Assembly: GCA_003116975.1 (NCBI GenBank)
Contig: BGKB01000017.1
Span: 372,001-436,000, forward strand
Direction: 5' to 3'
Source of the DNA: Aurantiochytrium sp. KH105
Taxonomy: Eukaryota; Sar; Bigyra; Thraustochytrida; Thraustochytriidae
DNA length: 64,000 bases
Of the stretch, positions 3,264 to 23,208 are shown piece by piece. Both the position numbers and the translations under genes were made by a program. Numbering within the stretch: position 1 is the first letter of the stretch; the number at the start of each line of letters is the position of its first letter. The notes under the pieces are model-generated. The model made no database searches. It was given only the letters and a program-made list of their open reading frames with translations, and was not told the origin of the DNA.

Positions 3264-3839
3264 ATGTCCAAGACCTTGGTTCTGGTCTTGGGCGGGGCCG
3301 CGGGCCGCGAGGAGCGGTCCGTGGAAGCCTCGATCGCGCAGGACGAGCAAGCAGGCGGCGGCCCGGGGCGGCAAAAGTGGCCAATCTGGCTTTCAGGACC
3401 TGCGCTCTCGGAAGACGCCGTGGAGAGGTGTGTCCATGCCGGCTGCGACGCCCGGTGTCTGCTCCTTGACTATGAGGCGGTGGATACGCTCTCGAACTTT
3501 ACGACGCTGGTGGATCTGATGCGAGAGCATAGCTTCAAAAAGGTGCATCTTGCCACGAGTTCGCTGCACATGCCCCGCGCAGTGGCGATTGCTGAGATTA
3601 TTCTGCCCGCGTATGGTTTGCGTTTGGGGAAAAAGATAAAAGTCGAACCTTCGCGTGGGGATCCTGACGAGCCGGCGATCACGCGATACCGCGATGTCGT
3701 ACGAGCTTGGATCTGGATCTGGTTTGGTTTTGACTTTGCAGCGCCGCTTCTGTGGCTTGTCCACCCTGATCGAATGCGACATCGGGATCGGCGCGTGAAA
3801 ACCTTAACATATCGTGGGGAATGCTGCTACGGAGACTGA
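3264..3839 (+). CDS. YdcF/SanA-like DUF218 domain protein
   Basis: 191 residues. The core matches the DUF218 (YdcF/ElyC/SanA) fold: a beta strand and glycine motif at the N-terminus (LVLVLGGAAGREERS), a PIWLSG strand, the hallmark segment DYEAVDTLSNFTTLVDLM around residues 70-87, then KKVHLATSSLHMPRAVAIAE with the family's Ser-x-x-His-x-x-Arg-Ala signature. Near the C-terminus an aromatic hydrophobic stretch (AWIWIWFGFDFAAPLLWLV) may be a membrane anchor. Bacterial relatives are linked to cell-envelope and sugar-nucleotide chemistry; in eukaryotic algae and protists the role is unknown. Start chosen because the first beta strand follows immediately. The last 20 residues are not conserved-looking. 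Confidence 0.75.
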   Translation: MSKTLVLVLGGAAGREERSVEASIAQDEQAGGGPGRQKWPIWLSGPALSEDAVERCVHAGCDARCLLLDYEAVDTLSNFTTLVDLMREHSFKKVHLATSSLHMPRAVAIAEIILPAYGLRLGKKIKVEPSRGDPDEPAITRYRDVVRAWIWIWFGFDFAAPLLWLVHPDRMRHRDRRVKTLTYRGECCYGD

Positions 3840-4024
3840 AAGATTGTTGTATCATAAAAGTTTTTGTCTTGCATGTTCTTTGGACATCCAAGACTCAGCT
3901 TTGTACTCGCAAGCTTCAGTTTTCGATGTTTTTTTTGGTTTGAAAACATAAAGTTGATTATCTCTCAGAACTCATCATTCTGGTGATGTAAGTAGGCCTG
4001 TGACACAGAACCCGGATGAAAGTC

Positions 4025-7000
4025 TCAGGCACTGGCAACAACGGCGTCTTTGGCGTTCTCGTCGGCCTCGGTCTTGGCCGCACGACGGCGACGACGGATG
4101 ACGACAGCGGCAAACACGGAGACGGCCACAAATGCACCAGCCACAGGACCCACGATGAGCGCCAGCGGCACAGCCGACGACTCGCTTGTGTTGCTCACCT
4201 GGAGCGTCGCAGACTTGGTCACAACCTGCAGAGATCGCGTCGAGTCCGACTCAAGCGCACGCCGCTCTCCAACCGAGGACGTCCAGGACGGCGTCGAGCA
4301 TGTGTCGACCACAGCCGTCACCGTGATCTCCATGGTCGACGTCGTTTCGGTAAACTCGCCAAAGACCCACTCGTTGGGCGTAAAGATGAAGCTGTCCACG
4401 TTGCGCGTCGAAATGCTTTGGCAACCTTGGTGGCCCTTATCATCGACCGCAAAGACGGCATCATTCGCAATCGTGAACGCGTTCGAGTTCTCCGCGTAGA
4501 ACGGCGCGCACGTGTTGTCAGAGCTGCCGGCGGCTTCAAAGCGGCAAAAGTGTCCGTCCTCGTACCACGGTGTTTGCACCAGCTGCATCCAGTCCACCTT
4601 GTCCTCGACCGCAAAGTTGCGCCGGTACAGACCGTTCGCCATGGAGACCTCGACATTCACCACACGCAGCGTCACGGACCCCGTCGGCGGAATGTTCGAG
4701 AAAGCGATGGTCGCTGTGATGGGGTTGTTGAGATTCGCGCCATCGATGGTGAGGTCCACGGGATAGGTACCGGTGACGTCCGTCTGGGCAGCAGGAACCG
4801 GGCAGTCCGATGTAAAGACCTTGTCGTTGACGATGGTTGGATCCTTGAGTGAACCTGTCTCGGCAAAGTCAGCGTACGTGAAGGTGGCCTGGACGTCGAG
4901 TGCGCTTAGATAGTCGAAGCTGCACGATGTTGTTTCTGCGCTGACCTCGCGAGCCATGGGCAGACACTCGGTGCTCGTCAGCTCGACGATGCATTCGTAA
5001 TTGCCATTGATCGCAGTCTCGTCGGTACACGAAAAGTCGCCAGGTTCGAGCAGAACATCGCCCATGGTGGGGTTGGAAAGAATGGTCTTCTCCGTTGGCT
5101 CGATGGAAGTGTCGAGACGGACGGTGTACTTGGTCTTGCCCATGGCCACAACACGGTCGCTGCACGGCTCGAAAGAGTAGTCGGCAATCTTCATGACGAG
5201 CTGATTGACGCTGGCGTCCGACGTGGCCTCGACGCCATTGTCGAGACGAGCGTAAAAGTCTATCGTGGCCTGGTCGTCAGCGAGGCTGGGCTTGGTATCG
5301 ATGTCGAGGTCGCACTCAGCTGGCAAGGTGAAACTGAGGAACTGCTCGACGTGGTAGACGATCTCACTGCCAGACTCGGAGAGCTTGCTGGGGTCCGTGA
5401 CACATGTGCTCAGGCGCTGCCCGAGCTCGGCCGAGGGGATGCTGGCGCTGTACTTGAAGGTCTCTGACACCGGAAGAGTCTCTGTGCACGCTGCGTCGCT
5501 GGCATCGCCGAGCTTGAGCGTCACCGTCGGAGGATATGGGCAGCTCTCCGAGGTGAAGGTGTTGCGACGAAGCTCGACATAGGTGTAGTACCCGTCGGTA
5601 TCTTCTGTGTCGTCTGCGGTGTAGAACACGTCGACGAGAAAGTATGGCTGGTCGCGCTCATCAATCGTGAGGAGGTGCACCGGGTACGGGTAGACTTGGA
5701 CGGAGCCAGAGGCCATGCCGAGGTCTTTGAGGAAGTAGATGAACTCGAGATCATTCACCTGGTACTCGTCGGCATTTTGAAAGGTCTCATTGAGGTTGAC
5801 GATGCAGCCGGCGGAGTCATCATCGGCAGCGGTGAGGGTGATCAGCTTGGGCTCGATGGCCTCGCTGCGCGAGCGGAGCACAGCTTTGGATTGCGTGCAG
5901 CTGAGCGCTGCAGGTGATGCGTTTGTGTCAGCATCAATAGGCACGAGGCGCATATGGGTGAGGTCGGCATCGGCCAGATCGTCGCCAACGATCTTGTCCC
6001 AAAGCTCGCCATTTTCGTCCGGGCCCAATCGATCAGCGTCCGCAAGGGTCTCGAAAACGAAGCTGGAGGTGTTGCGAGAATCGAAGACCTCGGGCTCGCA
6101 ACAGTCTGTGCAGTGGCAAAAGATATGGGAGATGGTACACGCGTCGAATTCTCCTGTTCCATCGTAGGGTCTGTTTGTCCCGGTAAGGGAAGCAGGAAGA
6201 TTTGGCTGTGGCCCGCAGAGAGGAACGTTATCAATGTTACTGCGTATCGGGATCATGTAAGCTTTCTTGCAGGAGAGGATTTTCGCGAAGGACTTACAAG
6301 TAGGTCAGACTTGTCATGCTACTGAGCGCTTGAGGAAGCTCCGTAAAATCTGTGTCGGCGATGTTCCTGTTCGATCAATTGTGAGTACGCTTTACTCTTT
6401 GATAAAGTGAGCGAGTGTGTTGAACGTACAGTTGAGTGAGCTGTGTGAGTGCGGACACACTCTCAGGAAGGGAGGTGAGAGGGTTGTCATGCATGTATCT
6501 ATAACAAGAATCAAAATGTTAGTTCCGTTCCAGCAGTTTGTTCGCGTTAGAGTGTATGCCATATCTTCCTCGACAATTCATGAGGAACGTCTCACGTACA
6601 AGTAACCCAGCTTGGTCAAAGCCCCAATCGAGGAAGGCAACTCTGTGAGCTCGTTGTGGTTGATGTATCTGCAGTAAAGTAAAAAAAAAAAAAGCGAATG
6701 TTAGTGGCAGCTCTTTTAGGTCTCGTCAACCACCCGATGAGATCATCTGACCTACAGGTTTAAAAGCTCGGAAAGCCCGGAAATACTGTCAGGAAGGGAC
6801 GTGAGCTGGTTGGACTGTGAGGACCTATTGTTCGCGTGCTTGCGTTTGTGAGTTTGCTTGGACGTTTCTTGCAGACAAGAGCACGACCAGCTTCGGTCAC
6901 TTTCACGTACAAGGAAGTCAGCTTGGTCAAAGCCCCAATCGAGGAAGGCAGTTCCGTGAGCTTGTTGGATTCGACATTCCTGCAGAAAAGGTTTTGGAAA

Positions 7001-8321
7001 AAGCGAATGTTAGTGGCGACTCTTATAGGTCTCGTCAAGTACCCGATGAGATCATCTGACTTACAGCGTGGTAAGTTCGGTAAGTCCTGAAATGCTCTCG
7101 GGAAGGGCCGTGAGCAGGTTGGACTGTGGATTGCTGTTGTTCGCATGCTTGCGTTCGTCAGTGTGCTTGTACATTTCTTGCAGACATCTTTAAGATCACG
7201 ACCAGCTTCGGTCACTTTCACGTACAACTTTTGGAGCTTGGTCAGAGCCCCAATCGTGGAAGGCAAGTCCGTGAGCTCATTGTTGTTGATAAACCTGAAG
7301 GCAAAATTTTGGAAAAAGCGGATGTTAGTGGCAACTCGCGTCAATCACCCGATGAGATCATCTGACTTACAGAGTGATAAGCTCGGAAAACCCGGAGATG
7401 CTCTCGGGAAGGGACGTGAGCTGGTTGGACTGTGGGTGGCTGTTGTTTGTGTGCTTGCGTTCGTGAGTTTGCTTGCATGTTTCTTGCAGACAAAACGCAC
7501 GACCAGCTTCGGTCACTTTCACGTACAAGGAAATCAGCTTGGTCAAAGCCCCAATCGAGGAAGGCACTTCGGTGAGGTTGTTATAACCGACATATCTGCA
7601 GTATAGGTTTTGAGAAAAGCGAATGTCAGAGGCAGCTCTTTTAGGTCTCGTCAACCACCCGATGAGATTATCTGACTTACAAAGTGGTGAGCTCGGATAG
7701 TCCGGAAAAACTGTCGGGGAGGGACGTGAGCTGGTTGTAATGTGAGTGGCTGTTGTTCGCGTGCTTGCGCTCGTGAGTGTGCTCGTACATGTCTTGCAGC
7801 CAAAGAGCACGACCAGCTTCGGTCACTTCCACGTACAAATTTTGGAGCTTGGTCAGAGCCCCGATCGAGGAAGGCAAGTCCATGAGCTCGTTATTGTTGA
7901 TAAACCTGCAGAAAAGGTTTTGGGGAAAGCAAATGTTAGTGGCAACTCTCTCAGGTCTCGCCAAATCGACGATCTTGATGCACGTACAGGGCCTTAAGAT
8001 TTGTCAGCTGGCCAACAGATCCAGAGATAGCCGTCAGCCCATTGAACGTCAGGTCGCTAGAGTTACAAACGGATGGGTTAGTATATCCTGCCAGTTCTTT
8101 GCAGCAAAGAAAACTTACAGGGACGTGAGCGAGGTCAAGGAGGAAAGGGCAGGCTCGAAAACGTCAGTGTTGTGGTCCTCGCCTTCGGCGATACCGGAGC
8201 CGCAGTCAGCACTGGTCGACAAGCCGTCACAAGGGGAAGGATTGCAGCTGCAACTTGCGCCATTCGTCAAGGCTGAGGTACAAAGAAGGACCACCAGGAG
8301 TAGTTGATGCCGAAGCATCAT
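4025..8321 (-). CDS. LRR gene A: type I membrane LRR protein with large ectodomain
   Basis: Fourteen-exon model: complement(join(4025..6239,6298..6366,6430..6498,6600..6668,6756..6824,6911..6979,7065..7133,7226..7294,7371..7439,7527..7595,7681..7749,7837..7905,7988..8056,8119..8321)), 1081 residues. Exon 1 encodes a signal peptide (LLLVVLLCTSALTNG) and a Cys-rich cap (CSCNPSPC). The next 12 exons are each 69 nt and each encode one 23-residue LRR (consensus NxLTxLPxSIGxLTKLxxL), all in phase 2. The last exon closes the solenoid (PLCGPQP), adds about 650 residues of Cys-containing ectodomain unlike anything I recognise, a single transmembrane helix (PLALIVGPVAGAFVAVSVFA), an RRRRR stop-transfer and a short tail. 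One donor is GTAGGT (after exon 10); the rest are GTAAGT or GTACGT. Probably a cell-surface recognition or adhesion protein. No expression evidence is available. Confidence 0.85.
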
Positions 8322-8460
8322 GGCGACAACACCGGTCTTGCTTGGAGGGGACCAATCTGAGCTCTTGTTGGCTTCTGAACCGACAGCGAGGGCGTGCGTT
8401 TGTTGCGGGTCTGCATCGCTTTTCTTTCTCGTTCGCCAGTCTACTATGCTTGCCCCGATT

Positions 8461-8520
8461 CGCCTTGGATTTGGCGCCGATGAAGGGGGGTAACTTTCAA
8501 CAAAATTTTCGGTTCAGAGG
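8461..8520 (+). repeat. 55-bp E2F-like dispersed element, copy 1
   Basis: Contains TTTGGCGCC followed by GATGAAGGGGGGTAAC and ends CGGTTCAGAGG. It lies about 140 bp upstream of LRR gene A's ATG. TTTGGCGC fits the E2F/DP consensus; binding is inference. Related copies sit at 9048-9101, 10311-10368 and 15885-15942. Confidence 0.7.
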
Positions 8521-8712
8521 AGATCGGGGGATGACCAACCCGCTGTTCAATGGGACGAGCAAGTGACCAACCCGCTCCCTGAGGGTGTGCGTCCCTTCTG
8601 AGCCGGAGTTGATCGCGAGCCTGGCGGATCTTTCCCTCCTCCGATCCCGGTCACCCCTCCGCTCGCGTTTCACAGCGTCGGAAGCTGCTCTCTGCGCCAC
8701 TGGCAGTGCACA

Positions 8713-9000
8713 TCAAGTTGCGTTTCCTTTTCCCTCATCCATCACCTGCATGCTCATGGAGGCAGTGCCACGCACGATGTGGTCGTCGGCCCGGAGCACG
8801 TGCACCATCCCTTGGACAGCACCGGTACCTGGACAGCCTCTCGGCGGCAAGTACGTGCAGCTATGGACGTCAGCGACAGTTGCGAGTCTCCCGTACACCT
8901 GGCTGCTCTCTTCAACTCCGGGAACGGACTCGGAGACGCGGCACGCGACTGCGACGGCTGTGCTGGTTGCAGCGGCGCCGCTGCAGCTTACAGTTAGTCT
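8713..9000 (-). pseudogene. Conserved upstream open frame, copy 1
   Basis: A minus-strand frame ending in ...MSMQVMDEGKGNAT then stop. It contains VESSQ-like and LATVADVHSCTYLPPRGCP segments and lies on the same strand as and upstream of LRR gene A. Two further copies (9830-10118, 15411-15701) keep the same frame and stop, with only in-frame indels between them. It could be the terminal exon of a lost gene or an upstream exon of the LRR gene. Family not recognised. Confidence 0.45.
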
Positions 9001-9047
9001 CTGTCGCAGTCGCGCGTTTGCTGCACAGTGAGTGGCCGCGGCACCTG

Positions 9048-9101
9048 GGATTTGGCGCCGATGAAGGGGGGTAACTTTCAACTAAATTTTCGGTTCAGAG
9101 G
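9048..9101 (+). repeat. 55-bp E2F-like dispersed element, copy 2 (insertion)
   Basis: Same element as at 8461, but inserted between GCGGCAC and GTGCAAGG. The mirrored site in the right arm (9778-9790) reads straight through without it, giving an empty-site comparison. No clear target-site duplication is seen. Confidence 0.65.
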
Positions 9102-9568
9102 TGCAAGGCATCGCCCGCAGCTGCTGGCTGCTCCCTCGCGCGTGCGGAATTTCCGGCCGCCTGGAATAATTTTTCCGCTGCTCGTTGCTGTTGCTCTTGC
9201 TGTTACACGTGGCTAATCGGCAACGTCGAGTGCAGTGGTCTTTGTTCGAAAGGTTCAGCGATCGTCGCAGTAGCAGCGAGAGATCGGGTCCACTGAAGAC
9301 GAAAACCGCAGCCGCAATCAAGGCCTTTGCAAAGAAGCTGCAAAAGTTACCGAGAGCGTCGGCGGACGCCCCTTCCCCCCCCCCCCCTCACTTGCCACCT
9401 ACGTGTGTGACCTTTTGAGGGGCAGTGATACACCTTACTGATAGAACACACAGATGCTTCCAACTGTGAGCGCTCTTCTCTGGCCCGGCTCGGAAGTGCC
9501 CACAAGAAGGTGGTGAGGTAGGCGAGGTAGGTGCACATAGCCACTGCAGGTCGCCGATCCGCCCTGCC

Positions 9569-9573
<5 letters not shown>

Positions 9574-9621
<48 letters not shown>
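9574..9621 (+). repeat. CAG microsatellite, block 1 (16 units)
   Basis: Sixteen perfect CAG triplets in the spacer between the inverted arms, preceded by an 18-bp sequence (GATCCGCCCTGCCACGAG) that also precedes block 2. Confidence 0.95.
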
Positions 9622-9622
<1 letters not shown>

Positions 9623-9633
9623 TCCGCCCTGCC

Positions 9634-9638
<5 letters not shown>

Positions 9639-9686
<48 letters not shown>
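9639..9686 (+). repeat. CAG microsatellite, block 2 (16 units)
   Basis: A second run of sixteen CAG triplets, followed by TAG, three more CAGs and CTGCAG repeats to about 9712. With the 18-bp leader, blocks 1 and 2 form a 66-bp direct duplication. Frames across it give poly-Leu, poly-Ala or poly-Cys and are not genes. Confidence 0.95.
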
Positions 9687-9689
<3 letters not shown>

Positions 9690-9829
9690 CAGCAGCAGCT
9701 GCAGCTGCAGCGGAAAGGTGAATGTTCCAGGCGGCCGGAAATTGCGCACGCGCGAGGGAGCAGCTGCGGGCGATGCCTTGCACGTGCCGCGGCCACTCAC
9801 AGTGCAGCAAACGCGCGACTGCGACAGAA

Positions 9830-10118
9830 ACTAACTGTAAGCTGCAGCGACGCCGCCACTGCACCCAGCACAGCCGTCGCAGTTGCGTGCCGCGTCTCCG
9901 AGTCCGTTCCCGGAGTTGAAGAGAGCAGCCAGGTGTACGGGAGACTCGCAACTGTCGCTGACGTCCATAGCTGCACGTACTTGCCGCCGAGAGGCTGTCC
10001 AGGAGCTGGTGCTGTCCAAGAGATGGTGCACGTGCTCCGGGCCGACGACCACATCGTGCGTGGCACTGCCTCCATGAGCATGCAGGTGATGGATGAGGGA
10101 AAAGGAAACGCAACTTGA
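9830..10118 (+). pseudogene. Conserved upstream open frame, copy 2
   Basis: Plus-strand frame upstream of LRR gene B, identical in layout to copy 1 and ending ...QVMDEGKGNAT then TGA. An acceptor-like CAG precedes it (near 9806), so it could be a 3' terminal exon. About 395 bp separate it from gene B's ATG. Confidence 0.45.
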
Positions 10119-10310
10119 TGTGCACTGCCAGTGGCGCAGAGAGCAGCTTCCGACGCTGTGAAACGCGAGCGGAGGGGTGACCGGGATCGGAGGAGGGAAA
10201 GATCCGCCAGGCTCGCGATCAACTCCGGCTCAGAAGGGACGCACACCCTCAGGGAGCGGGTTGGTCACTTGCTCGTCCAATTGAACAGCGGGTTGGTCAT
10301 CCCTCGATCT

Positions 10311-10368
10311 CCTCTGGACCGAAAATTTTGTTGAAAGTTACCCCCCTTCATCGGCGCCAAATCCCAGG
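10311..10368 (-). repeat. 55-bp E2F-like dispersed element, copy 3
   Basis: Mirror of copy 1, about 150 bp upstream of gene B's ATG; the core reads GGCGCCAAA on the plus strand. Confidence 0.7.
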
Positions 10369-10512
10369 TGAATCGGGGCAAGCATAGTAGACCGGCGAAT
10401 GAGAAAGAAAAGCGCTGCAGACCCGCAACAGACGCACGCCCTCGCTGTCGGTTCAGAAGCCAACAAGAGCTCAGACTGGTCCCCTCCAAGCAAGACCGGT
10501 GTTGTCGCCGTG

Positions 10513-12972
10513 ATGCTTCGGCATCAACTACTCCTGGTGGTCCTTCTCTGTACCTCAGCCTTGACGAATGGCGCAAGCTGCAGCTGCAATCCTTCCCCTT
10601 GTGACGGCTTGTCGACCAGTGCTGACTGCGGTTCTGGTATCGCCGAAGGCGAGGACCACAACACTGACGTTTTCGAGCCTGCCCTTTCCTCCTTGACCTC
10701 GCTCACGTACCTGTAAGTTTTCTTTGCTGCAAAGAACTGGCAGGATATACTAACCCATCCGTTTGTAACTCTAGCGACCTGACGTTCAATGGGCTGACGG
10801 CTATCTCTGGATCTGTTGGCCAGCTGACAAATCTTGAGGCCCTGTACGTGCATCAAGATCGTCGATTTGGCGAGACCTAAGAGAGTTGCCACTAACATTC
10901 GCTTTCCCCAAAACCTTTTCTGCAGGTTTATCAACAATAACGAGCTCATGGACTTGCCTTCCTCGATCGGGGCTCTGACCAAGCTCCAAAATTTGTACGT
11001 GGAAGTGACCGAAGCTGGTCGTGCTCTTTGGCTGCAAGACATGTACGAGCACACTCACGAGCGCAAGCACGCGAACAACAGCCACTCACATTACAACCAG
11101 CTCACGTCCCTCCCCGACAGTTTTTCCGGACTATCCGAGCTCACCACTTTGTAAGTCAGATAATCTCATCGGGTGGTTGACGAGACCTAAAAGAGCTGCC
11201 TCTGACATTCGCTTTTCTCAAAACCTATACTGCAGATATGTCGGTTATAACAACCTCACCGAAGTGCCTTCCTCGATTGGGGCTTTGACCAAGCTGATTT
11301 CCTTGTACGTGAAAGTGACCGAAGCTGGTCGTGCGTTTTGTCTGCAAGAAACATGCAAGCAAACTCACGAACGCAAGCACACAAACAACAGCCACCCACA
11401 GTCCAACCAGCTCACGTCCCTTCCCGAGAGCATCTCCGGGTTTTCCGAGCTTATCACTCTGTAAGTCAGATGATCTCATCGGGTGATTGACGCGAGTTGC
11501 CACTAACATCCGCTTTTTCCAAAATTTTGCCTTCAGGTTTATCAACAACAATGAGCTCACGGACTTGCCTTCCACGATTGGGGCTCTGACCAAGCTCCAA
11601 AAGTTGTACGTGAAAGTGACCGAAGCTGGTCGTGATCTTAAAGATGTCTGCAAGAAATGTACAAGCACACTGACGAACGCAAGCATGCGAACAACAGCAA
11701 TCCACAGTCCAACCTGCTCACGGCCCTTCCCGAGAGCATTTCAGGACTTACCGAACTTACCACGCTGTAAGTCAGATGATCTCATCGGGTACTTGACGAG
11801 ACCTATAAGAGTCGCCACTAACATTCGCTTTTTCCAAAACCTTTTCTGCAGAAATGTCGAATCCAACAAGCTCACGGAACTGCCTTCCTCGATTGGGGCT
11901 TTGACCAAGCTGACTTCCTTGTACGTGAAAGTGACCGAAGCTGGTCGTGCTCTTGTCTGCAAGAAACGTCCAAGCAAACTCACAAACGCAAGCACGCGAA
12001 CAATAGGTCCTCACAGTCCAACCAGCTCACGTCCCTTCCTGACAGTATTTCCGGGCTTTCCGAGCTTTATAACCTGTAAGTCAGATGATCTCGTCGGGTG
12101 ATTGACGAGACCTATGAGAGTTGCCGCTAACATTCGCTTTCTTTAAACTTTACTGCAGAGAAATCAACGACAACAAGCTCACGGAATTGCCTTCCTCGAT
12201 TGGGGCCTTGACCAAGCTGCGTTACTTGTACGTGAAACGTCCAAGCGAATTCCTCATGAATTGTCGAGGAAGATATGGCATAAACTCTAACGCGAACAAA
12301 CCGCTGGAACGGAACCAACATTTTGATTGTTGTTATAGATACATGCATGACAACCCTCTCACCTCCCTTCCCGAAAGTCTGTCCGCACCCACACAACTCA
12401 CTCAACTGTACGTTCAACACACTCGCTCACTGGAATCAGTAGTCAACGTACTCACAATTGATCGAACAGGAACATCGCCGACACAGATCTTACGGAGCTT
12501 CCTCAAGCGCTCAGTAGCATGACAAGTCTGACCTACTTGTAAGTCCCTCGCGAGATATAAGCGGTGCAGGAAAGCTTACATGATCCCGGTGCGCAGTAAC
12601 ATTGATAACGTTCCTCTCTGTGGGCCACAGCCAGTTCTTCCTGCTTCCCTCACCGGGACAAACAGGCCGTACGAAGGAACAGGGGAATTCGATTCATGTC
12701 TACCTACTGCAACACAGTATCCTACAGCCGAGCCGACAGTGATTATCGATGACGAGTCGTTGGCTACGCCAGTGGCGCTTATCGTGGGCCCTGTCGCTGG
12801 TGCGTTTGTGGCCTTCTCCTTGTGTGCCGCTGTCGTTCTTCGTCGCCGCCGTCGCGCGACCAAGACCGAGGCCAACGCAGAACCCTTCGCAGACCCCTAC
12901 GCAGAACCCTACGCACCAGACGCAGCCCCCTTCGCAAAAGACGCAGTCCCCACCGCGATTAACTGCGGCTGA
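10513..12972 (+). CDS. LRR gene B: type I membrane LRR protein, short stalk
   Basis: Fourteen exons: join(10513..10712,10775..10843,10926..10994,11082..11150,11236..11304,11392..11460,11537..11605,11698..11766,11852..11920,12007..12075,12159..12227,12339..12407,12470..12538,12597..12972), 467 residues. Exon 1 gives the signal peptide and Cys-rich cap. Twelve 69-nt phase-2 exons give twelve 23-residue LRRs. The last exon has the PLCGPQP cap, a very short stalk (QYPTAEPT), a transmembrane helix (VALIVGPVAGAFVAFSLCAA), RRRRR, and a tail with repeated AEPF/ADPY/AEPY units. Compared with gene A the ~650-residue ectodomain is absent. Intron 1 carries a perfect TACTAAC branch site about 21 nt before its acceptor. 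The exon sums close exactly in frame, which strongly supports the model. A surface receptor or adhesion role is inferred. Confidence 0.85.
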
Positions 12973-13018
12973 GTTGACAGCGATAAACGAGTGCCACCTA
13001 TGTCATACCGACGAGTTG

Positions 13019-13165
13019 TCGGCTGTGCCGCTGGCGCTCATCGTGGGTCCTGTGGCTGGTGCATTTGTGGCCGTCTCCGTTTTTGCCGCTGTTGTGATCC
13101 GTCGCCGCCGTCGCGCGGCCAAGACCGAGGCCGACGAGAACGCCAAAGACGCCGTTGTTGCCAGT
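13019..13165 (+). pseudogene. Second TM-tail module after gene B, out of frame
   Basis: After gene B's stop, another frame encodes SAVPLALIVGPVAGAFVAVS plus RRRRR and KTEADENAKDAVVAS, nearly identical to gene A's tail. It is open in the +1 frame all the way back to 12749 through a Thr/Gln/Pro-rich stretch, so a frame change upstream would join it to the LRR protein. The same layout follows genes D and E. Confidence 0.6.
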
Positions 13166-13169
13166 GAGA

Positions 13170-13876
13170 CATCCACCTGGAGTTCGAGTCCTAATTCAAG
13201 CGAGTCGCAGACCCCGATCAGAACCATTTCAGGACCAAAAGGAAACCCGAGCCAACCATACTTGTAAGTTGCGACTTAAGTTAGCTGGGCCTATCACTTC
13301 AGCATTCTTTGCGCATCTACATTGCACAGATGTGCATTGATTTGCTTCGCGCTCAGCTTCTCTTCTTCGTATGTGTCATGAGCTTCTTCGCTCATTCGTT
13401 TCGATCCCAATTCTAAGCATGATATTTGGGCGACCAATATTTTCGACTCGGAGGATCTCACACGAACAGGTTCTCCGCCCACAGATCGTTTAGCTTTGAG
13501 TCTGCCTTGTCGTTGGGTTTCGTTGTGAGCACGCCCAGTTCATTAGCCAGTCAGACAGGTTCTTCTCACGTCGCAGGCTGAAGTCACCTACCTGTCGCCT
13601 AGATTTAACCGTCAGACACTCTTATTGTTAGTTCATTAGATTGGGTTTCGCACACCGCGGCCAGCTGGACGTGGTCCCTGGCCGTCCCTGGCCGCGGGTT
13701 AGGCAAAAACATTTAGTATCTAAAAACAAGCGGACATTCGCGACGGAGAGAGAACAGGCTCGACAGGGACAAACTGTAAATCCAATCCAAGTGTGAGACG
13801 CGCAAGCGAGCGAGCCTCCGGTTCGGGTTTGGACAAGTCATGGATTCTTCTGAAAATCGGGGTGACTCGGTGTTGA
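13170..13876. other. Intergenic between LRR gene B and pseudogene C
   Basis: Likely 3' untranslated region of gene B; 13270-13530 is homologous to 18640-18900 downstream of gene D. No gene seen. Confidence 0.4.
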
Positions 13877-13945
13877 AATTGATTGTTTATAATCTCTTGG
13901 AGCTTATCATTCCGGTGATGGAATCATGAATTCGGGAAGAATGTC

Positions 13946-15383
13946 TCAGGCACTGGCAACAACAGCGTCTTTGGCGTTCTCGTCGGCCTCGGTTATAGCC
14001 GCGTGACGGCGGCGACGAATGCCGACAGCGGCAAAATCGGAGACGGCCACAATGCACCAGCCATAGGACCCACAAAAATCGCCAGCGGCACAGCCGGCAA
14101 CTCGCTGACGTCGCCGGCGACTCGCTTGTGTTACTCACCTGGAGCGTCGCAGACTTGGTCACAACCTGCAGAGATTGCGTCAAGTTCGACTCAAGCGCAC
14201 GCCGCTCCCCAGCCGAGGACGTCCAGGACGGCGTCGAGCACGTGTCGACCACAGCCGTCACCGTGATCTCCATGGTCGACGTCGTCTCAGTAAACTCGCC
14301 AAAGACCCACTCGTTGGGCGTGAAGATGAAGCTGTCCACGTTGCGCGTCGAAATGCTTTGGCACCCTTGGTGGCCCTTATCATCGACCGCAAAGATGGCA
14401 TCATTCGCAATCGTGAATGCGTTCGAGTTCTCCGCGTAGAACGGTGCGCACGTGTTGTCAGAGCTGCCGGCAGCTTCAAAGCGGCAAAAGTGTCCGTCCT
14501 CGCACCACGGCGTTTGCACCAGCTGCGTCCCGTCCACCTTGTCCTCGACCGCAAAGTTGCACCGGTACAGACCGTTCGCCATCGAGACCTCGACATTCAC
14601 CACACGCAGCGTCACGGACCCCGTCGGCGGCGATAAATGTCCGAGAAAGCGATGGTCGCTGTGATGGGGTTGTTGAGGTTCGCGCCATCGATGGTGAGGT
14701 CCACGGGGTAGGTGCCGGTGACGTCCGTCTGCGCAGCAGGAACTGGGCAGTCCGATGTAAAGACCTTGTCGTTGACGATGGTTGGATCCTTGAGTGAACC
14801 CGTCTCGGCAAAGTCAGCGTACGTGAAGGTGGCCTGGACGTCGAGTGCGCTCAGATAGTCGAAGCTGCACGATGTTGTTTCTGCGCTGACCTCGCGGGCC
14901 ATGGGCAGACACTCGGTGCTCGTCAGCTCGACGATGCATTCGTAAGTGCCATTGATCGCAGTCTCGTCGGTACACGAAAAGTCGCCAGGTTCGAGCAGAA
15001 CGTCGCCCATGGTGGGGTTGGCTAGAATGGTCATCTCCGTTGGCTCGATGGAAGTGTCGAGACGGACCGTGTACTTGGTGCACTGCCCATGGCCACAACA
15101 CGGTCGCTGCACGGCTCGAAAGAGTAGTCGGCAATCTTCATGACGAGCTGATTGACGTTGGCGTCCGACGTGGTCTCGACGCCATTGTCGAGACGAGCGT
15201 AAAAGTCTATCGTGGCCTAATCGTCAGCGAGGTCGGGCTTGGTATCGATGTCGAGGTCGCACTCAGCTGGCAAGGTCAAACTGAGGAACTGCTCGACGTG
15301 ATAGACGATCTCACTGCCAGACTCGGAGGCTTGCTCGGGTCCGTGACACATGTGCTCAGGCGCTGCCCGAGCTCGGCCGTGCA
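13946..15383 (-). pseudogene. LRR gene pseudogene C: truncated copy of gene A ectodomain
   Basis: Minus-strand homologue of gene A's last exon, starting within the SAELGQR region and running through the transmembrane tail, with no LRR exons or signal peptide. Lesions relative to gene A: a TAG at about 15219 (GAC CAG became GAT TAG), a 2-nt insertion near 15078, an insertion in the NIPPTGS region near 14630, a one-base loss near 15330, and disruption of the transmembrane segment near 14040-14110. The 5' end is cut at 15383 and fused directly to the LRR upstream-region repeat. Much of the middle is still highly similar to A, so the loss is recent. Expression is not expected. Confidence 0.85.
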
Positions 15384-15410
15384 GCAAACGCGCGACTGCG
15401 ACAGAAACTA

Positions 15411-15701
15411 ACTGTAAGCTGCAGCGGCGCCGCCACTGCACCAACCAAAGCCGTCGCAGTCGCGTGCAGCGTCTCCGAGTCCGTCCCCGGAGTTGAAGAG
15501 AGCAGCCAGGTGTACGGGAGACTCGCAACTGTCGCTGACGTTCATAGCTGCACGTACTTGCCGCCGAGAGGCTGTCCAGTTGCCGGTGCTGTCCAGGAGA
15601 TGGTGCGCGTGCCCCGGGCCGACGACCAGCTGCAGATCGTGCGTGGCACTGCCTCCATGAGCATGCAGGTGATGGATGAGGGAAAAGGAAACGCAACTTG
15701 A
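15411..15701 (+). pseudogene. Conserved upstream open frame, copy 3
   Basis: Same frame as copies 1 and 2, upstream of LRR gene D, with an in-frame 6-nt insertion (adds Gln-Leu after RADD) and the same stop. Retention of the frame through substitutions and indels hints at past or present coding constraint. Confidence 0.45.
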
Positions 15702-15884
15702 TCACTGCCAGTGGGGCAGAGAGCAGCTTCCGACGCTGTGAAACGCGAGCGGAGGGGTGACCGGGATTGGAGGAGGGAAAGATCTGCCAGGCTCGCGATC
15801 AACTCCGGCTCAGAAGGGACGCACACCCTCAGGGAGCGGGTTGGTCACTTGCTCGGAACAGCGGGTTAGTCATTCCCCTGATCT

Positions 15885-15942
15885 CCTCTGAACCGAAAAT
15901 TTTGTTGAAAGTCACCCCCCTTCATCGGCGCCAAATCCCAGG
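15885..15942 (-). repeat. 55-bp E2F-like dispersed element, copy 4
   Basis: About 145 bp upstream of gene D's ATG, same core (GGCGCCAAA) and spacing as copy 3. Gene E lacks it. Confidence 0.7.
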
Positions 15943-16086
15943 TGAATCGGGACAAGCATGGTAGACCGGCGAACGAGGAGGCATGGCACTGTAGACGCGC
16001 AACAGACGCACGCCCTCGCTGTCGGTTCAGAAGCCAACAAGAGCTCAGACTGGTCCCCTCCAAGCAAGACCGGTGTTGTCGCCGTG

Positions 16087-18328
16087 ATGCTTCGGCATCA
16101 ACTACTCCTGGTGGTCCTTCTTTGTACCTCAGCCTTGACGAATGGCGCAAGCTGCAGCTGCAATCCTTCCCCTTGTGACGGCTTGTCGACCAGTGCTGAC
16201 TGCGGTTCTGGTATCGCCGAAGGCGAGGACCACAACACTGACGTTTTCGAGCCTGCCCTTTCCTCCTTGACCTCGCTCACGTCCCTGTAAGTTTTCTTTG
16301 CTGCAAAGAACTGGCAGGATATACTAACCCATCCGTTTGTAACTCTAGCGACCTGAGGTCCAATGGGCTGACGGCTATCTCTGGATCTGTTGGCCAGCTG
16401 ACAAATCTTGAGGCCCTGTACGTGCATCAAGATCGTCGATTTGGCGAGACCTAAGTTGCCACTAACAATCGCTTTCCCCAAAACCTTTTCTGCAGGTTTA
16501 TCAACGATAACGAGCTCATGAACTTGCCTTCCTCGATCGGGGCTCTGACCAAGCTCCAAAAATTGTACGTGGAAGTGACCGAAGCTGGCCGTGCTCCTGG
16601 AATTTTAGAAGATGACGCTTACACTCAAACACGAGCAAACAGAGGAATTTGGAACAACCAGCTCACGTCTCTCCCTGAGAGCATTTCGGAACTTTCCGAA
16701 CTTACTGGCCTGTAAGTCAGATGATTTCATTGAATGGTTGACGCGACCTGAAAGAGTTGCTACTAACTTTCGCTGCTTGAGAAATAAATACTTTGTTGCA
16801 GAGATGTCGGCGGAAACAAGCTCACAGAATTGCCTTCCTCGGTTGTGGCTTTGACCCATCTGACTGGGTTGTACGTGAAAGTGGACAAAGTTTGCTGTGC
16901 TCCTAGAATTTCGGAAAGATGACACTTACTCTTTTTTCTTTTCTTTTTTAACGCGAACATAAACAGATATGTCGGCAACAATCAGGTCACGTCTCTCCCC
17001 GAGAGCATTTCGAGACTTTCCGAGCTTATCCACCTGTAAGCCAAACAACATCATCGAATGGTGGACGTGACCTGAAGGAGTTGCTACTAACTTTCGCTGC
17101 TTGAGAAATAAATACCTTATTGCAGATATGTCGACCGAAACGAGCTCACGGACTTGCCTTCCACGATTGGGTCTTTGACCAAGCTGCGTTACTTGTACGT
17201 GAACGTGAAAGTGACCGAAGCTGGTCGTGCTCTTCGTCTGTACGAAATGTACAAGCACACTGACGAACGCAAGCACGCGCACAACAGCTATCCACATTTG
17301 AACATGCTCACGTCCCTCCCCGACAGTATTTCCGGGCTTTCCGATCTTTATTACCTGTGAGTCAGATGATCTCATCGGGTGATTGACGAGACCTATGAGA
17401 GTTGCCGCTAACGTTCGCTTTTCCCAAAACCTTTACTGCAGATACATCAACAACAACAAGCTCACGGAATTGCCTTCCTCGATTGGGGCTTTGACCAAGT
17501 TGGGATACGTGTACGTGAAACGTTCAAGTGAATTCCTCATGAATTGTCGAGGAAGATATGGCATAAACTCTAACGCAAACAAACCGCTGGAACGGAACCA
17601 ACATTTTGATTGTTGTTATAGATACATGCATGACAACCCTCTCACCTCCCTTCCCGAAAGTCTGTCCGCACTCACACAACTCACTCAACTGTACGTTCAA
17701 CACACTCGCTCACTAGAACTAAGAGTAAAGCGTACTCACAATTGATCGAACAGGAACATCGCCGACACAGATCTTACGGAGCTTCCTCAAGCGCTAAGCA
17801 GCATGACAAGTCTGACCTACTTGTAAGTCCTTAGCGAGATATAAGCGGTGCAGGAAAGCTTACATGATCCCGATGCGCAGTAACATTGATAACGTTCCTC
17901 TCTGTGGGCCACAGCCAGTTCTTCCTGCTTCCCTCACCGGGACTTCCAGGCCGTACGAAGGAACAGGGGAATTCGATTCATGTCCACCTACTGCAACACA
18001 GTATCCTACGCAGTATCCTTCGCAGTATCCTACAGCCGAGCCGACAACCGAGCCGACAGCCGAGTCGACAACCGAGCCGCCAGCCGAGCCGGCAGTGATT
18101 ACCGATGACGAGTCGTTGGCAACGCCAGTGGCGCTTATCGTGGGCCCTGTCGCTGGTGCGTTTGTGGCCTTCTCCTTGTGTGCCGCTGTCGTCCTTCGTC
18201 GCCGCCGTCGCGCGACCAAGACCGAGGCCAACGCAGAACCCTTCGCAGACCCCTACGCAGAACCCTACGCACCAGACGCAGCCCCCTTCGCAAAAGACGC
18301 AGTCCCCACCGCGATTAACTGCGGCTGA
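16087..18328 (+). CDS. LRR gene D: type I membrane LRR protein, ten LRRs
   Basis: Twelve exons: join(16087..16286,16349..16417,16496..16564,16643..16711,16802..16870,16967..17035,17126..17194,17288..17356,17442..17510,17622..17690,17754..17822,17881..18328), 445 residues. Same plan as gene B: signal peptide and CSCNPSPC cap, ten 69-nt LRR exons, PLCGPQP, then a longer stalk of TQYP/SQYP and TAEP/TAES repeats, a transmembrane helix and the AEPF/ADPY tail. One donor is GTGAGT (after exon 8). Several introns differ in length and sequence from A and B, including a pyrimidine-rich one before 16967, so cassettes here come from more than one source. The promoter is shared with B by direct duplication. 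Confidence 0.85.
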
Positions 18329-18374
18329 GTTGACAGCGATAAACGAGTGCCACCTATGTCATACCGACGAGTTG

Positions 18375-18540
18375 TCGGCTGTGCCGCTGGCGCTTATCGT
18401 GGGTCCTGTGGCTGGTGCATTTGTGGCCATCTCCGTGTTTGCCGCTGTCGTCATCCGTCGTCGCCGCCACGCGGCCAAGACCGAGGCCGACAAGAACGCC
18501 AAAGACGCCGTTGTTGCCAGTGAGACATCCACCTGGAGTT
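18375..18540 (+). pseudogene. Second TM-tail module after gene D, out of frame
   Basis: Encodes SAVPLALIVGPVAGAFVAIS, RRRRH and KTEADKNAKDAVVAS in the +1 frame after gene D's stop. The frame is open from 18105 to 18638. Confidence 0.6.
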
Positions 18541-18639
18541 CGAGTCCTAATTCAATTCGAGTCGCATACCCTGATCAGAACCATTTCAGGATCAAAAGGA
18601 AACCCGGGCCAACCATACTTGCAACTTGCATGGCGTAGA

Positions 18640-19510
18640 CTTGAGTTAGCTGGGCCTATCACTTCAGCATTCTTTGCGCATCTACATTGCACAGATGTGC
18701 ATTAATTTGCTTCGCGCTCAGCTCCGATTCTGCGTATGCGTCATGAGCGTCTTCGCACATTCGTTTCGATCCTAATTCTAAGCATGATATTTGGACGACC
18801 AATATTTTCGACTCGGAGGATCTCACAAACAGGTTCTCAGCCCTCAGATCGTTAACCTTGTCATTGGGTTACGTTGTGAGCATGACCAGTTCATCAGCCA
18901 GTCAGATAAGTTCTTCTCACATGGTCGAGCGCAACTAGGGTATAAGCAAAGTTCGACTCTCGTGTTGCGCAGGTCTGTGCGAGCGAGAGGGCGATCGCCA
19001 GCGCCGTGCGACGTACGCTCAGCTGGCAAGCTGTCGCACGCAATCACTCGAACGAACGAACGAACGAACGATGGCTAGATCCAACCAGCCAGGCCCAGCG
19101 CTGCCACCACGGCGAGCGACATGGCAGCAAGCAACAAACGCAGCTTACCTCTCTCTCCCTCCCGCTGCTGCTGCATCATTCTCCAGCGCGCGAGAGAGAG
19201 TGAAACCTCTTCGCTGCCGCGGATAGAACTTGCAGGTTCTGCTGCCGCTGATCGCGCCGGACGCACGCCTCTCTCTTTTGACCCGCCACTAATTCGTCAT
19301 ACCAGCACAGCCGGCATAATGTTAGATGAGGGGGGGGAGAACCGGTTCGCACCCGGCCCAGTACGCGTGGTACGCGGGGTACCCGGCGCAGATCACGCGA
19401 AATTATCATCATGCCAGGCAGACCCGCAACAGACGCAAGGCCTCACTGTCGGTCCGGAAGCCAACAAGAGCTCGGAGTGGTCCTCTTCAAGCAAGAAAGG
19501 CATGGTCGCG
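18640..19510. other. Intergenic between LRR genes D and E
   Basis: The first ~260 bp match the 3' region of gene B. A CGAA tetranucleotide run lies at about 19049-19070. The promoter of gene E is expected in the last few hundred bases; it does not share the 55-bp element of genes A, B and D. Confidence 0.4.
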
Positions 19511-21915
19511 ATGATGCTTCGGCATTTACTGCTCCTACTGAGCCTTCTTTGTGCCTCAGCCTTGACGAGGGGCGCAACTTGCACCTGCGACACTGCTTCT
19601 TGTGACGGCTCGTCGACCAGTGCTAACTGCGCCAGCAGTATTGGCGAAGACGAGGACCGCAACATTGAAGTCTTCGACCCTCCCCTGTCCACCTTGACCT
19701 CGCTCAAGTCTCTGTAAGTTTTCTTCGCTGCAGAGTGCTGCCAAGGTGTACTAACAAATCCCTTTATACTCGTAGCGATCTGAGGAGCAATGGGCTGACG
19801 GCCATCTCTGAAATTCTTGGCCAGCTGACCTCGCTCACATCCCTGTAAGTTTTCTTCGTTGCAGAGTGCTACCAAGGTATACTAACCAATCCGTCTACAA
19901 TCGTAGAATTCTGGAGTCCAATGATCTGACGGCTATATCTGAAATTATTGGCCAGCTGACAAATCTTGAGTACCTGTACGTGCGTCAAGATCATCAATGT
20001 GGCGAGACCAACAAGAGTTGCCACTAACATTCGCTATCTGAGAAATACCTCACAACAGAAATGTTCGGCGCAACGAGATCACAGAGCTGCCTTCCTCGAT
20101 TGCGGCTTTGACCAAGCTGACATACTTGTACGTGAAAGTGGCCAACACTGACCGTGCGCTTTGGACGCAAGAAAAGTGCAAGCACACTCACGAGCACAAG
20201 CACGCACACAACAGATATACATCGTACAATAAGCTCACGTCCCTTCCCGAGAGCGTTTCGGAACTTACCGAGCTTACCCGCCTGTAAGTCAATTGATGTC
20301 ATCGAATGTTTGACGAGACCTAAAAGAGTTGCCACTGACATTCGCTGTTTGGGAAATACCTCATTGCAGAAATCTCAACTTCAACAACTTCATCGAGTTT
20401 CCTTCTAGTTTAGGGGCTTTAACCAAGCTGAGATACATGTACGTGAAAGTGGCCGAAGCTGGCCGTGCTCTTCGAATATAAAAAGATGACCCTTACATCT
20501 AAACGCGAGCAAAAACAGAGATTTCTGGGACAACCAGCTTACGTCCCTCCCCGAGAGCATTTCGAGACTTTCTCTACTTTACGATATGTAAGTGATATGA
20601 TGTCATTGAACGATTGACGAGGCCTGAAAGAGTTGCCGTTGACATCTGCTTTTCGAAAAATGCCATATTGCAGAAATGTACGATTCAACGAGCTCACGGA
20701 CTTGCCCTCTTCGATTGGGGCTTTGACCGAGCTGCAAAACCTGTACGTGAAAGTGGCCAAAGCCGGCCGTGCTCTTCGAATATTAGAAAAATGACCCTTA
20801 CACTTGAGCGCGAGCAAAAACAGTAATGTCGACAACAACAAGCTCACGGAATTGCCTTCCTCGATTGGGGCTTTGACCAAGCTGCGAAACTTGTACGTGA
20901 TTCTGGCCCAAGCCGGCCGTGCTCTTCGAATATTAGAAAGATGACCCTTACACTTGAACGCGAGCAAAAACAGATATTCCTACAGCAACCAGCTTCCGGA
21001 CCTCCCCGAGAGCATGTCGGCACTTTCTCAACTTATCACACTGTAAGCCCGATGATGTCATCGAGACGGCGAGGCAGAAATGGAATACACGAGCGAGCCA
21101 CTGGAAGGGGAACTGACACTTCTTTTTCTGATATAGAGACACAAATGCCAACCCCCTCACTTCACTTCCCGAAGGTCTGTCCGCACTCACACAGCTCCGT
21201 AAACTGTACGTTTAACACACTCGCTCATCAAAATTAGAGACCAAGCGTACTCACAATCAATCGAATAGGGACATCGCCGACACAGATCTCACCAAGCTTC
21301 CTCAAACATTCGGTAGCTTGACAAGTCTGACCTACTTGTAAGTCTTTCGCGAGATAGTAGCGATGCAAAAGAGCTCACACGATTCCGATGCGCAGGAACA
21401 TTGATGACGTACCTCTCTGCGGGCCACAGCCAGTTCTTCCTGCCTCACTCACCGGGACTTCCAGGCCGTACGAAGGAACAGGGGAATTTGATTCATGTCC
21501 ACCGACCACAACACAGTATCCTTCGCAGTATCCTACAGCCGAGCCGACAGTCGAGTCGACAGCCGAGTCGACAGCCGAGCCGACAGCCGAGCCGACAGCC
21601 GAGTCGACAGCCGAGCCGACAACCAAGCCGACAGCCGAGCCGACAGCCGAGTCGACAACCGAGCCGCCAGCCGAGCCGGCAGTGATTACCGATGACGAGC
21701 CGTTGGCTACGCCAGTGGCGCTTATCGTCGGTCCTGTCGCTGGTGCGTTTGTGGCCTTCTCCTTGTGTGCCGCTGTCGTCCTTCGTCGCCGCCGTCGCGC
21801 GACCAAGACCGAGGCCAACGCAGAACCCTACGCAGACTTCTACGCAGAACCCTACGCACCAGACGCAGCCCCCTTCGCAAAAGACGCAGTCCCCACCGCA
21901 GTTAACTGCGGCTGA
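19511..21915 (+). CDS. LRR gene E: type I membrane LRR protein with expanded stalk
   Basis: Thirteen exons: join(19511..19713,19776..19844,19907..19975,20059..20127,20215..20283,20370..20438,20519..20587,20674..20742,20824..20892,20974..21042,21137..21205,21269..21337,21396..21915), 493 residues. ATG 19511 is chosen to match genes A, B and D; an in-frame ATG at 19502 is an alternative. Eleven 69-nt LRR exons follow. Here the first two LRR exons are a local duplication with the same intron type. The last exon carries a long Thr/Glu/Pro/Ala stalk made of 12-nt repeats (TAEP and TAES), likely O-glycosylated if secreted, then the transmembrane helix and the AEPY/ADFY tail. This is the most diverged member of the cluster in LRR sequence. 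Confidence 0.85.
21530..21680 (+). repeat. 12-nt minisatellite encoding the TAEP/TAES stalk
   Basis: About a dozen copies of a GCCGAGCCGACA-type unit inside gene E's last exon. Gene D has around five related units and gene B one, so stalk length scales with repeat number. Confidence 0.9.
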
Positions 21916-21961
21916 GCCGACAGCGATAAACGAGTGCCACCTTTGTCACACCGACGAGTTG

Positions 21962-22114
21962 TCGGCTGTGCCGCTGACGCTTATCGTGGGTCCTGTGGCT
22001 GGTGCACTTGTGGCCATCTCCGTGTTTACCGCTGTCGTCATCCGTCGTCGCCGTCACGCGGCCAAGACCGAGGCCGACGAGAACACCAAAGACGCTGTTG
22101 CTGCCAGTGTCTGA
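21962..22114 (+). pseudogene. Second TM-tail module after gene E, out of frame
   Basis: Encodes SAVPLTLIVGPVAGALVAIS, RRRRH and KTEADENTKDAVAASV, ending at a stop in the same place as gene A's tail. The frame is open from 21692. Confidence 0.6.
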
Positions 22115-22295
22115 GACGTCCATCTAGAGTTCGAGTCATGATTACATGACCGGCATGATGTGCTCCAAGAGATGATCAACTTAAACAAAAATGAAGCTTT
22201 TCACGTGTTGACAAGGAAGTCGCAATCTGCCGATGCATTGACGGTCACGATAGAGTACAAGAATTACATTCTGATCATTGCCCTGACGAGCCTAG

Positions 22296-23208
22296 CTAGG
22301 GAATGGAGTCACCCATCATGACTGCTCGAAGGTCCGCATGGGCAGCCCAATTGACCTTGGCCTCGAGCATCATCGTCGTCAGGACGTGACGCAGCCAGGC
22401 ATTTCGGTGACGCAAGTGGGCAGTCTCTGCAGCGCTACGCTTGAGCGAAGAGGACTCTGAGTCATGCGTGGGGCTCGATGGCACTGTCTTGGAAGCCCAC
22501 TTCTCCCTCGCCTCGGTCTGTCGCTGCAGCACTTGGCGTTGCAAGCTCGCTTCCTCTTCCTCTGCTAGCCGACAGGCGTGGGCGAGTTTAAGTACGCGAG
22601 ATGCGAGCTTGTCGCGATCCATAAAACCGGCATTTGCAGCTGCTCGAGCGGCGGCATCTGCATCAAGGGTCGCTGCTGCAGCTGCTTCTTTAGCGGACTC
22701 GCTGGCAACGACTTTACTCAAGAAAATCCTCTCAAGCACGGCTTCATTCTGTTGCAGGTCCACCGTGAGATCAAAGAGTTGTGTCTGCGCATGCGTGGGT
22801 GAGCAAGATAAAATTGCCCGGTTGTGAGAATCAGAGCAGAGCAAAGCAAAGCATCGCGATTCGAGCTTGAAAACGCGAAAACCACTTCTGGATATGAATC
22901 GATTTGCAATAATAACTTACCTTGAGAAGTGCAATGCTTGTCTTAAGCCTTTCCTCGGCTTCAACACGATCATCGGGCAGCCGCTCGTCGCCTGCTGCCT
23001 GTTGTTGAGCCCTCAGCTTTCGCAGATTATCCTCATCCTCCCGCTGGGCCTCCAAGGCCGCCCTCTTGAGCGCGATCTTTTCGTTCGCAAAGGCGACCTT
23101 GATTCGCTTTCGTTTTCTGGGCACAAGCGCCGGGAACAGCAATGCTGTGCGCAGGAGCGCCGCGCTCTCCTCCTCGACGGCCTCGAGCGCCATCGCGAGC
23201 GTCGTCAT
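22296..23208 (-). CDS. CENP-H-like kinetochore protein candidate
   Basis: Two exons: complement(join(22296..22784,22921..23208)), 258 residues, phase-0 intron of 136 nt (donor GTAAGT, acceptor CGCAG). The protein is helical and coiled-coil rich, with an Ala-rich middle. The last ~45 residues (HRNAWLRHVLTTMMLEAKVN then WAAHADLRAVMM) resemble the C-terminal signature of CENP-H, where an Arg-Asn-x2-Leu helix is followed by VNWAEDPxLxxIV. In the family this subunit belongs to the constitutive centromere-associated network with CENP-K, I and M. The start is uncertain: the frame stays open upstream and could include SELKSDLTVGRGKTS. The match is a short motif, so the name is tentative. Confidence 0.5.

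Follow-up and report, generated by a model that had tools for sequence, protein, structure and literature searches.

Phase-2 exon arrays in which every exon encodes one leucine-rich repeat (LRR) are already known. The LRR-ROCO genes of brown algae contain one LRR per 72-bp phase-2 exon, form tandem arrays and display positively selected concave residues, as stated in Teng 2024 (PMC11378527); Zambounis 2012, as cited there and in PMC6564038, deals with the same genes. In Tetrahymena the LRR exons are uniformly 90 bp long, again in phase 2; most species have more than 1,000 LRR genes, the majority of which lack a transmembrane (TM) domain, and unequal crossing-over and an association with retrotransposons have been proposed. 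We here discuss a family of this kind in the thraustochytrid Aurantiochytrium sp. KH105. It was detected in a 64-kb stretch of contig C17 (C17:372001-436000, in the following "the window"; the assembly comprises 76.0 Mb in 367 contigs). Four genes of the window, A, B, D and E, are built from 69-nt exons, which are all in phase 2 and each encode one 23-residue LRR. A preliminary description of the stretch had named plants and animals as precedents of such exons; the brown-algal ROCO genes and Tetrahymena are nearer ones.

With the brown-algal genes the family shares the stramenopile affiliation, the single LRR per phase-2 exon, the tandem arrangement and the selection on the concave face. The brown-algal exons, in contrast, measure 72 bp and belong to proteins with a ROC-COR GTPase, while the thraustochytrid ones measure 69 nt and are accompanied by a signal peptide, caps, a stalk and a TM helix. 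The ROC-COR tandem domain had no match in spliced gene D or in the last exon of gene A, the two sequences scanned. Tetrahymena, likewise a protist, has arrays of uniform phase-2 LRR exons that vary in number, and unequal crossing-over has been proposed for them. It differs by its 90-bp exons from the thraustochytrid family, which is small (350 exons, all of 69 nt), encodes a TM helix and alternates two types of exon as its unit. The vertebrate glycoprotein-hormone receptors have phase-2 LRR exons of similar size (as cited in PMC11378527). Unlike the thraustochytrid genes, they encode G-protein-coupled receptors. Variation of their arrays is not known to us.

In lampreys, an incomplete gene and a bank of cassettes are joined by somatic assembly into the variable lymphocyte receptors (VLRs), which bind with their concave face (PMC3308329). 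Their layout is similar: signal peptide, N-cap, first LRR, variable number of LRRs, end modules, C-cap and a Thr/Pro-rich stalk. Common to both is also a fixed LRR scaffold with a concave face that is hypervariable, with mixed results of the allelic tests in our case. In contrast to VLRs, 21 of the 29 thraustochytrid copies read as complete, exon-split germline genes, and the loci examined contain no loose cassettes. Since most copies are complete germline genes, the family is not a VLR. Among the publications listed on thraustochytrid or labyrinthulomycete LRRs, immune receptors and viruses and on protist VLRs, judged by title or beginning of the abstract, no account of the family was found, and the terms "leucine-rich" and "LRR" are absent from a thraustochytrid proteome paper (PMC12221091) searched for them. 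What has no account in the literature searched is that a thraustochytrid combines a surface-receptor layout with an exon unit of two alternating types and with large differences between some of its apparent haplotypes. We consider it probable, at roughly 0.63, that the genes constitute a germline family of single-pass surface LRR receptors, VLR-like in character, which is diversified by local duplication or recombination of exon units and by selection on the concave face.

Exon arrays in the window and across the assembly

The full window was scanned on both strands for AG, 69 nt and GT enclosing an open phase-2 frame with LRR residues (score at least 5). The 46 matches comprised 45 LRR exons, i.e., 12 in A, 12 in B, 10 in D and 11 in E, and one weak stray at 52904. 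When the unit length was varied from 60 to 78 nt (score at least 7), 69 nt yielded 45 matches and the other lengths 0-4, except 73 nt with 43. We attribute the latter to a second GT within the donor consensus GTACGT/GTAAGT; a 73-nt unit breaks the frame. After shuffling of the first 24 kb in 3-base blocks, no match was left in five out of five shuffles. Number, length and phase of the exons, as first described, are thereby confirmed. The claim that the terminal exons close the frame holds as well: the last exons consist of 1 nt plus whole codons, and all four spliced models have a length divisible by three and a single terminal stop. The first exons measure 200 or 203 nt, as had been claimed, if counted from the MMLRH/MLRH start; an in-frame ATG upstream is open in B, D and E, and the length thus depends on the start chosen. 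The introns of the window genes span 58-111 nt. All predicted junctions rest on GT-AG sites, reading frame and repeat register.

The 45 exons should not be counted as independent events. The first eight LRR exons of A and B are practically the same, and a uniform length of 69 nt is the outcome to be expected from the duplication of one intron-bearing repeat unit.

The family far exceeds the four genes that were named at the beginning. It was searched for with window positions 1-8600 and 16000-25000 as DNA queries and in the regions retrieved, which makes all counts lower bounds. From 355 candidate 69-nt exons five were dropped (two on C253, one because of its GC donor and two non-LRR chance frames), leaving at least 350 exons. 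They are distributed over 20 contigs and make up 29 gene copies or fragments. The arrays contain 5-29 exons each, and all 350 exons stand in chains of at least five; on C8 the array is broken up into two fragments, one with 5 and one with 6 exons. The exon order is N-(alpha-beta)n-T1-T2, with some steps doubled or missing, whereby the class labels stem from a simple rule that mislabels a few exons. When the C-terminal exon served as query, 65 matches were returned, of which 64 fell on these 20 contigs. Both ends could be modelled in 21 of the 29 copies, each model having a length divisible by three and one terminal stop, although four of the 21 skip a broken or unread stretch. For the other eight, the first or last exon was not found in the DNA examined.

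The family scan sought 69-nt exons only. Of the 321 intervals between consecutive exons, however, 315 are not longer than 140 nt and leave no space for exons of another size. Three of the six longer ones hold, as judged by eye, a recognisable LRR exon with a frame-breaking change in length; two include unread sequence, and one is without an exon. That the introns might be coding linkers is ruled out for 277 of the 315 short intervals, which do not offer a continuous frame: an in-frame stop occurs in 254, and in 130 the length is not divisible by three. The other 38 are open throughout. Conservation of the alpha-beta (n = 123) and beta-alpha introns (n = 104) extends well beyond the splice signals to much of the intron, which may reflect recent homogenisation or a regulatory role. 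A Dscam-like pairing of the two intron types was considered and rejected: the duplex energy was −32.9 against a shuffle mean of −26.3, and 8% of 500 shuffles were equally strong.

Outside this assembly, a search with spliced gene D led to record P0002 of Hondaea fermentalgiana, and P0121 is 89% identical to the last exon of gene A (656/733, gaps included); these matches suggest that the window stems from a thraustochytrid near this species. A protein search with the C-terminal region returned three proteins, all named Hondaea fermentalgiana. The absence elsewhere is weak evidence, because intron-split genes are easily mispredicted. The Hondaea LRR records P0002 and P0049, named LRR-containing protein 1 and plant Ras-group LRR protein 5, seem on visual inspection to translate introns and to miss LRR exons. 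With such generic names and apparent read-through in the two LRR records found, the family is easy to miss in protein databases.

Mosaics, apparent haplotypes and the concave face

Mosaicism was measured as identity in global alignments, taken in windows of 60 nt. For A and B it amounts to 93-100% in the first 29 windows (about 1.7 kb) and to 76-98% in the next 10; then their last exons diverge. B and D agree by 83-100% in the first 11 windows, by 10-88% in the next 18, gaps due to array length included, and again by 88-98% in the next 11. Read from these alignments, A/B and B/D are mosaics. D matches its counterpart on C36 by 88-100% from the first LRR exon onward, while D and E show no near-identical blocks of that kind. 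Intron identity is 0.83-0.88 within genes versus 0.80 between genes, as local duplication predicts. Between non-allelic genes, 21 pairs of alpha or beta exons are at least 93% identical. Twelve of them belong to A/B or C9/C73, four to the window cluster or its C36 allele, and five connect other loci. The change thus looks mostly local, and the exchange of single exons between distant loci was rejected as rare. Near-identical exons also recur inside C9, C73, C98 and C367. Their even spacing (26 of 30 pairs) is no evidence of pair duplication, since the alternation of the classes enforces it.

By flanks of about 90-97% identity, contigs pair as C17 window/C36, C17-200k/C58, C14/C244, C151/C356, C98/C367, C59/C214, C51/C123, C288/C8 and C9/C220. 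For C17-212k/C58-210k, the 3' flank is 90% identical over 1148 nt and the 5' flank 82-94% in pieces. These pairs probably represent two haplotypes. Exon number is stable in several of them and very different in two. The extremes are C17-212k/C58-210k with 9 versus 21 intact LRR exons and C17-204k/C58-203k with 29 versus at least 20. Smaller differences are seen in C51a/C123a (8 vs. 10), C59/C214 (12 vs. 10, C59 having one more, broken exon), C98/C367 (18 vs. 17) and C151/C356 (11 vs. 10), the shorter member of each of the last two containing one broken exon. C288/C8 has 9 versus 5+6, and C9/C220 shows 20 versus 6, which are not comparable because of incomplete coverage. Numbers are equal in C14/C244 (12), D/C36 (10) and C51b/C123b (7). 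The extra exons of the longer alleles are distinct sequences, not identical copies.

At the window locus, entire genes differ. C36 contains one D-like gene, C17 four genes (A, B, D and E) plus a remnant, C. On C36 about 160 nt of the tail of gene A are joined to the upstream region of D, which looks like a deletion. The C36 gene (L043) also contains a 2.2-kb insertion in intron 1 (about C36:553854-556076); by eye it is transposon-like, with a terminal inverted repeat of 8 bp and a short duplication of the target. The preliminary description had stated that any cassette can be added, lost or swapped with the frame kept. Differences in whole exons and whole genes between apparent haplotypes, as well as the mosaics in the window, bear this out in part; free swapping of single cassettes is not supported, given the few near-identical pairs that link other loci.

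Where do the exons vary? Positions 1, 3, 4, 21 and 22 are hypervariable in alpha and beta exons, 2 and 6 are intermediate and the others conserved. Entropy amounts to 2.6-3.6 bits at the five hypervariable positions and to at most 1.02 (beta) or 1.84 bits (alpha) at positions 5 and 7-20. In the LxxLxLxxNxL numbering, we take positions 21, 22, 1, 3, 4 and 6 to be the exposed concave strand. With fixed trees, built from 132 distinct alpha and 122 distinct beta exons, codon-based maximum likelihood (ML) yielded a concave omega of 1.66 and 1.72, respectively, with likelihood-ratio test (LRT) values against 1 of 12.0 and 13.3; the framework omega was 0.32 and 0.30. With a kappa parameter, the values changed to 2.06 and 1.97 for the concave and 0.36 and 0.34 for the framework codons. 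Out of 20 random sets of six framework codons, 19 gave an omega of 0.12-0.58 and one 1.000, possibly an optimiser stop; none exceeded 1.

Alleles were compared in 77 exon pairs, excluding the poorly aligned C17-204k/C58-203k, C51a/C123a and middle of C17-212k/C58-210k, and also C288/C8. The pooled concave nonsynonymous change (pN) was 1.47 times the overall synonymous change (pS; bootstrap median, 1.11-1.96) and 2.04 times the intron divergence (1.51-2.72), as compared with 0.33 times for the framework. Concave pN exceeds intron divergence in six of eight gene pairs and overall pS in four of eight (C59/C214, C151/C356, C9/C220 and the ends of C17-212k/C58-210k). The case for diversifying selection is good across the whole family, with mixed results on the alleles.

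Predicted proteins and possible readings

The modelled proteins start with MMLRHLLLL or similar, followed by a CxC...C cap, the LRRs and a VPLCGPQPVLP...C cap. Behind the C-cap, many models have a Thr/Pro stretch, then comes a hydrophobic helix and, in most of them, an Arg-rich tail. Kyte-Doolittle peaks at both ends, the criterion for signal peptide and TM helix being hydropathy only, are present in all four window genes. Gene A, C17:204k and C58:203k contain a long extra ectodomain, with last exons of 737, 857 and 855 codons; that of gene A has no Pfam match. Spliced gene D scored 90.3 bits with LRR_8 and 99.5 with LRR_4 (cut-off 27 each) and matched LRR families only, without any Pfam signalling domain. 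The best-scoring solved sequence was SHOC-2, which is a resemblance of the scaffold only.

The receptors would thus consist of a signal peptide, a Cys-containing N-cap, a conserved first LRR, a variable number of alternating alpha and beta LRRs, two conserved terminal LRRs, C-cap, stalk, TM helix and a short basic tail. Each LRR would correspond to one symmetric (2-2) 69-nt exon between introns that are repeats themselves. Unequal crossing-over or gene conversion along this ladder of introns and exons could add, remove or replace exon units with the frame kept, and selection would then diversify the concave beta-strand residues (exon positions 1, 3, 4, 6, 21 and 22) on a fixed scaffold. The recombination route of the exon units, correct splicing and display at the surface are presumed. 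A receptor function is suggested by architecture and selection, and the concave face may bind varied partners such as viruses, bacterial or self/non-self molecules. All this suggests a fast-changing, inherited recognition repertoire. In our judgement, it is largely open how unicellular eukaryotes diversify their recognition of viruses, bacteria and each other. A compact and likely surface-exposed family with frame-neutral exon modules, a fixed scaffold, a variable face and marked divergence of some apparent haplotypes would make this question testable in a culturable organism.

A number of observations speak against this receptor reading. Several allele pairs have equal exon numbers, sharing of exons between distant loci is rare and three family exons are frame-broken. 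The ML test uses short and possibly recombined exons; trees from the framework codons give a concave omega of 2.17 and 1.93, but LRTs of 407 and 780, too large to be trusted. The allelic excess is uneven, concave pN being equal to overall pS in C98/C367 and lower in C14/C244, C51b/C123b and D/C36. Measured against concave synonymous change alone, the pooled concave pN is just 1.01-fold (0.68-1.57). Such data would also suit a repetitive surface glycoprotein or adhesin for attachment, matrix or ectoplasmic net, in which tandem repeats turn over and the concave residues are merely free to vary. The short tail, the lack of a signalling domain in gene D, the excess over overall pS in just half of the allele pairs, the ratio of 1.01 with local pS and the recurrence of near-identical exons in four loci are in line with it. 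Against it stand the concave omega seen with local dS, both LRTs being above 12, and a pooled concave pN of about twice the intron divergence, and we regard an adhesin as rather unlikely. That the stretch harbours a receptor-diversifying system, as had been proposed, is in part supported by the copy-number differences between apparent haplotypes, the mosaics and the ML results on the concave face, not by the pairs with equal exon number or those without an excess of concave replacements.

A bolder idea is a programmed repertoire, in which combinatorial splicing of the symmetric exons or rearrangement of the arrays in clonal lines would equip cells with different sets of LRRs. Each 69-nt exon could be skipped in frame, conservation covers a large part of both types of intron, and LRR exons of brown-algal ROCO genes are alternatively spliced (PMC11378527). 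The pairing of the intron consensus sequences is, however, unremarkable, most copies read as complete genes, and a bank of loose cassettes is missing from the loci examined, every exon belonging to a longer chain; this idea is clearly improbable. Quite doubtful, too, is a convergent VLR-like repertoire in a stramenopile, i.e., a germline ladder from which each lineage, perhaps each cell by exon skipping or mitotic recombination, presents different binding faces for immunity or self/non-self distinction. None of the tests run shows a dedicated or somatic diversifying mechanism. Finally, wrong exon limits, pseudogenes or mis-assembled repeats might simulate the family. The exon limits are known from sequence alone, the frame-broken exons would fit and the two Hondaea records appear to depart from our exon structure. 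An artefact is nevertheless very improbable: the frame closes in four of four window genes and in 21 of 29 copies, the extra allelic exons are distinct, and the framework is under purifying selection. The germline receptor family remains our preferred reading.

The window cluster and its neighbours

The features of the cluster are compiled in the table. A and B form an inverted pair.

Table. Features of the LRR gene cluster (window positions)
Feature	Position	Strand	Content
Gene A, last exon	4025..6239	-	737 codons after split codon; C-cap, long ectodomain without Pfam match, TM helix, short basic tail
Gene A, LRR array	6298..8056	-	12 x 69 nt, phase 2 (N, alternating alpha/beta, T1, T2)
Gene A, first exon	8119..8321	-	203 nt; signal peptide and Cys cap
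Gene B, first exon	10513..10712	+	200 nt
Gene B, LRR array	10775..12538	+	12 x 69 nt; exons 1-8 99-100% identical to A
Gene B, last exon	12597..12972	+	C-cap, Thr/Pro stalk, TM, basic tail
"C", partial copy of gene A last exon and downstream flank	13953..15433 (approximate)	-	92% identity to window 3953-5433; no 69-nt LRR exon detected in window scan
Gene D, first exon	16087..16286	+	200 nt
Gene D, LRR array	16349..17822	+	10 x 69 nt; ends like B, middle different
Gene D, last exon	17881..18328	+	C-cap, stalk, TM, tail
Gene E, first exon	19511..19713	+	203 nt
Gene E, LRR array	19776..21337	+	11 x 69 nt
Gene E, last exon	21396..21915	+	C-cap, stalk, TM, tail

B, D and E all have one further TM segment downstream that resembles a tail (C17:384869, 390222 and 393809). 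Rfam and tRNA scans of the window gave no match.

The neighbourhood contains three tandem open reading frames (ORFs) of 1317-1520 codons on the minus strand (window 24949-28902, 30023-34192 and 35659-40221), which share long segments; the first of them, the one scanned, matches ABC_membrane and ABC_tran. A kinesin ORF of 951 codons also lies near the cluster. These long single-frame neighbours suggest that introns are few in the vicinity and that the receptor genes are the exception. An NLR-like ORF of about 1532 codons (window 54904-59502, minus strand) is located 33 kb from the cluster. In the N-terminal 886 codons, TIR_2 and NPHP3_N score above the cut-off and NACHT below it; the remainder contains, by eye, very similar WD40-like repeats. 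A match to SepSecS, the O-phosphoseryl-tRNA(Sec) selenium transferase, at window 41467-42927 on the plus strand points to the use of selenocysteine in this protist.

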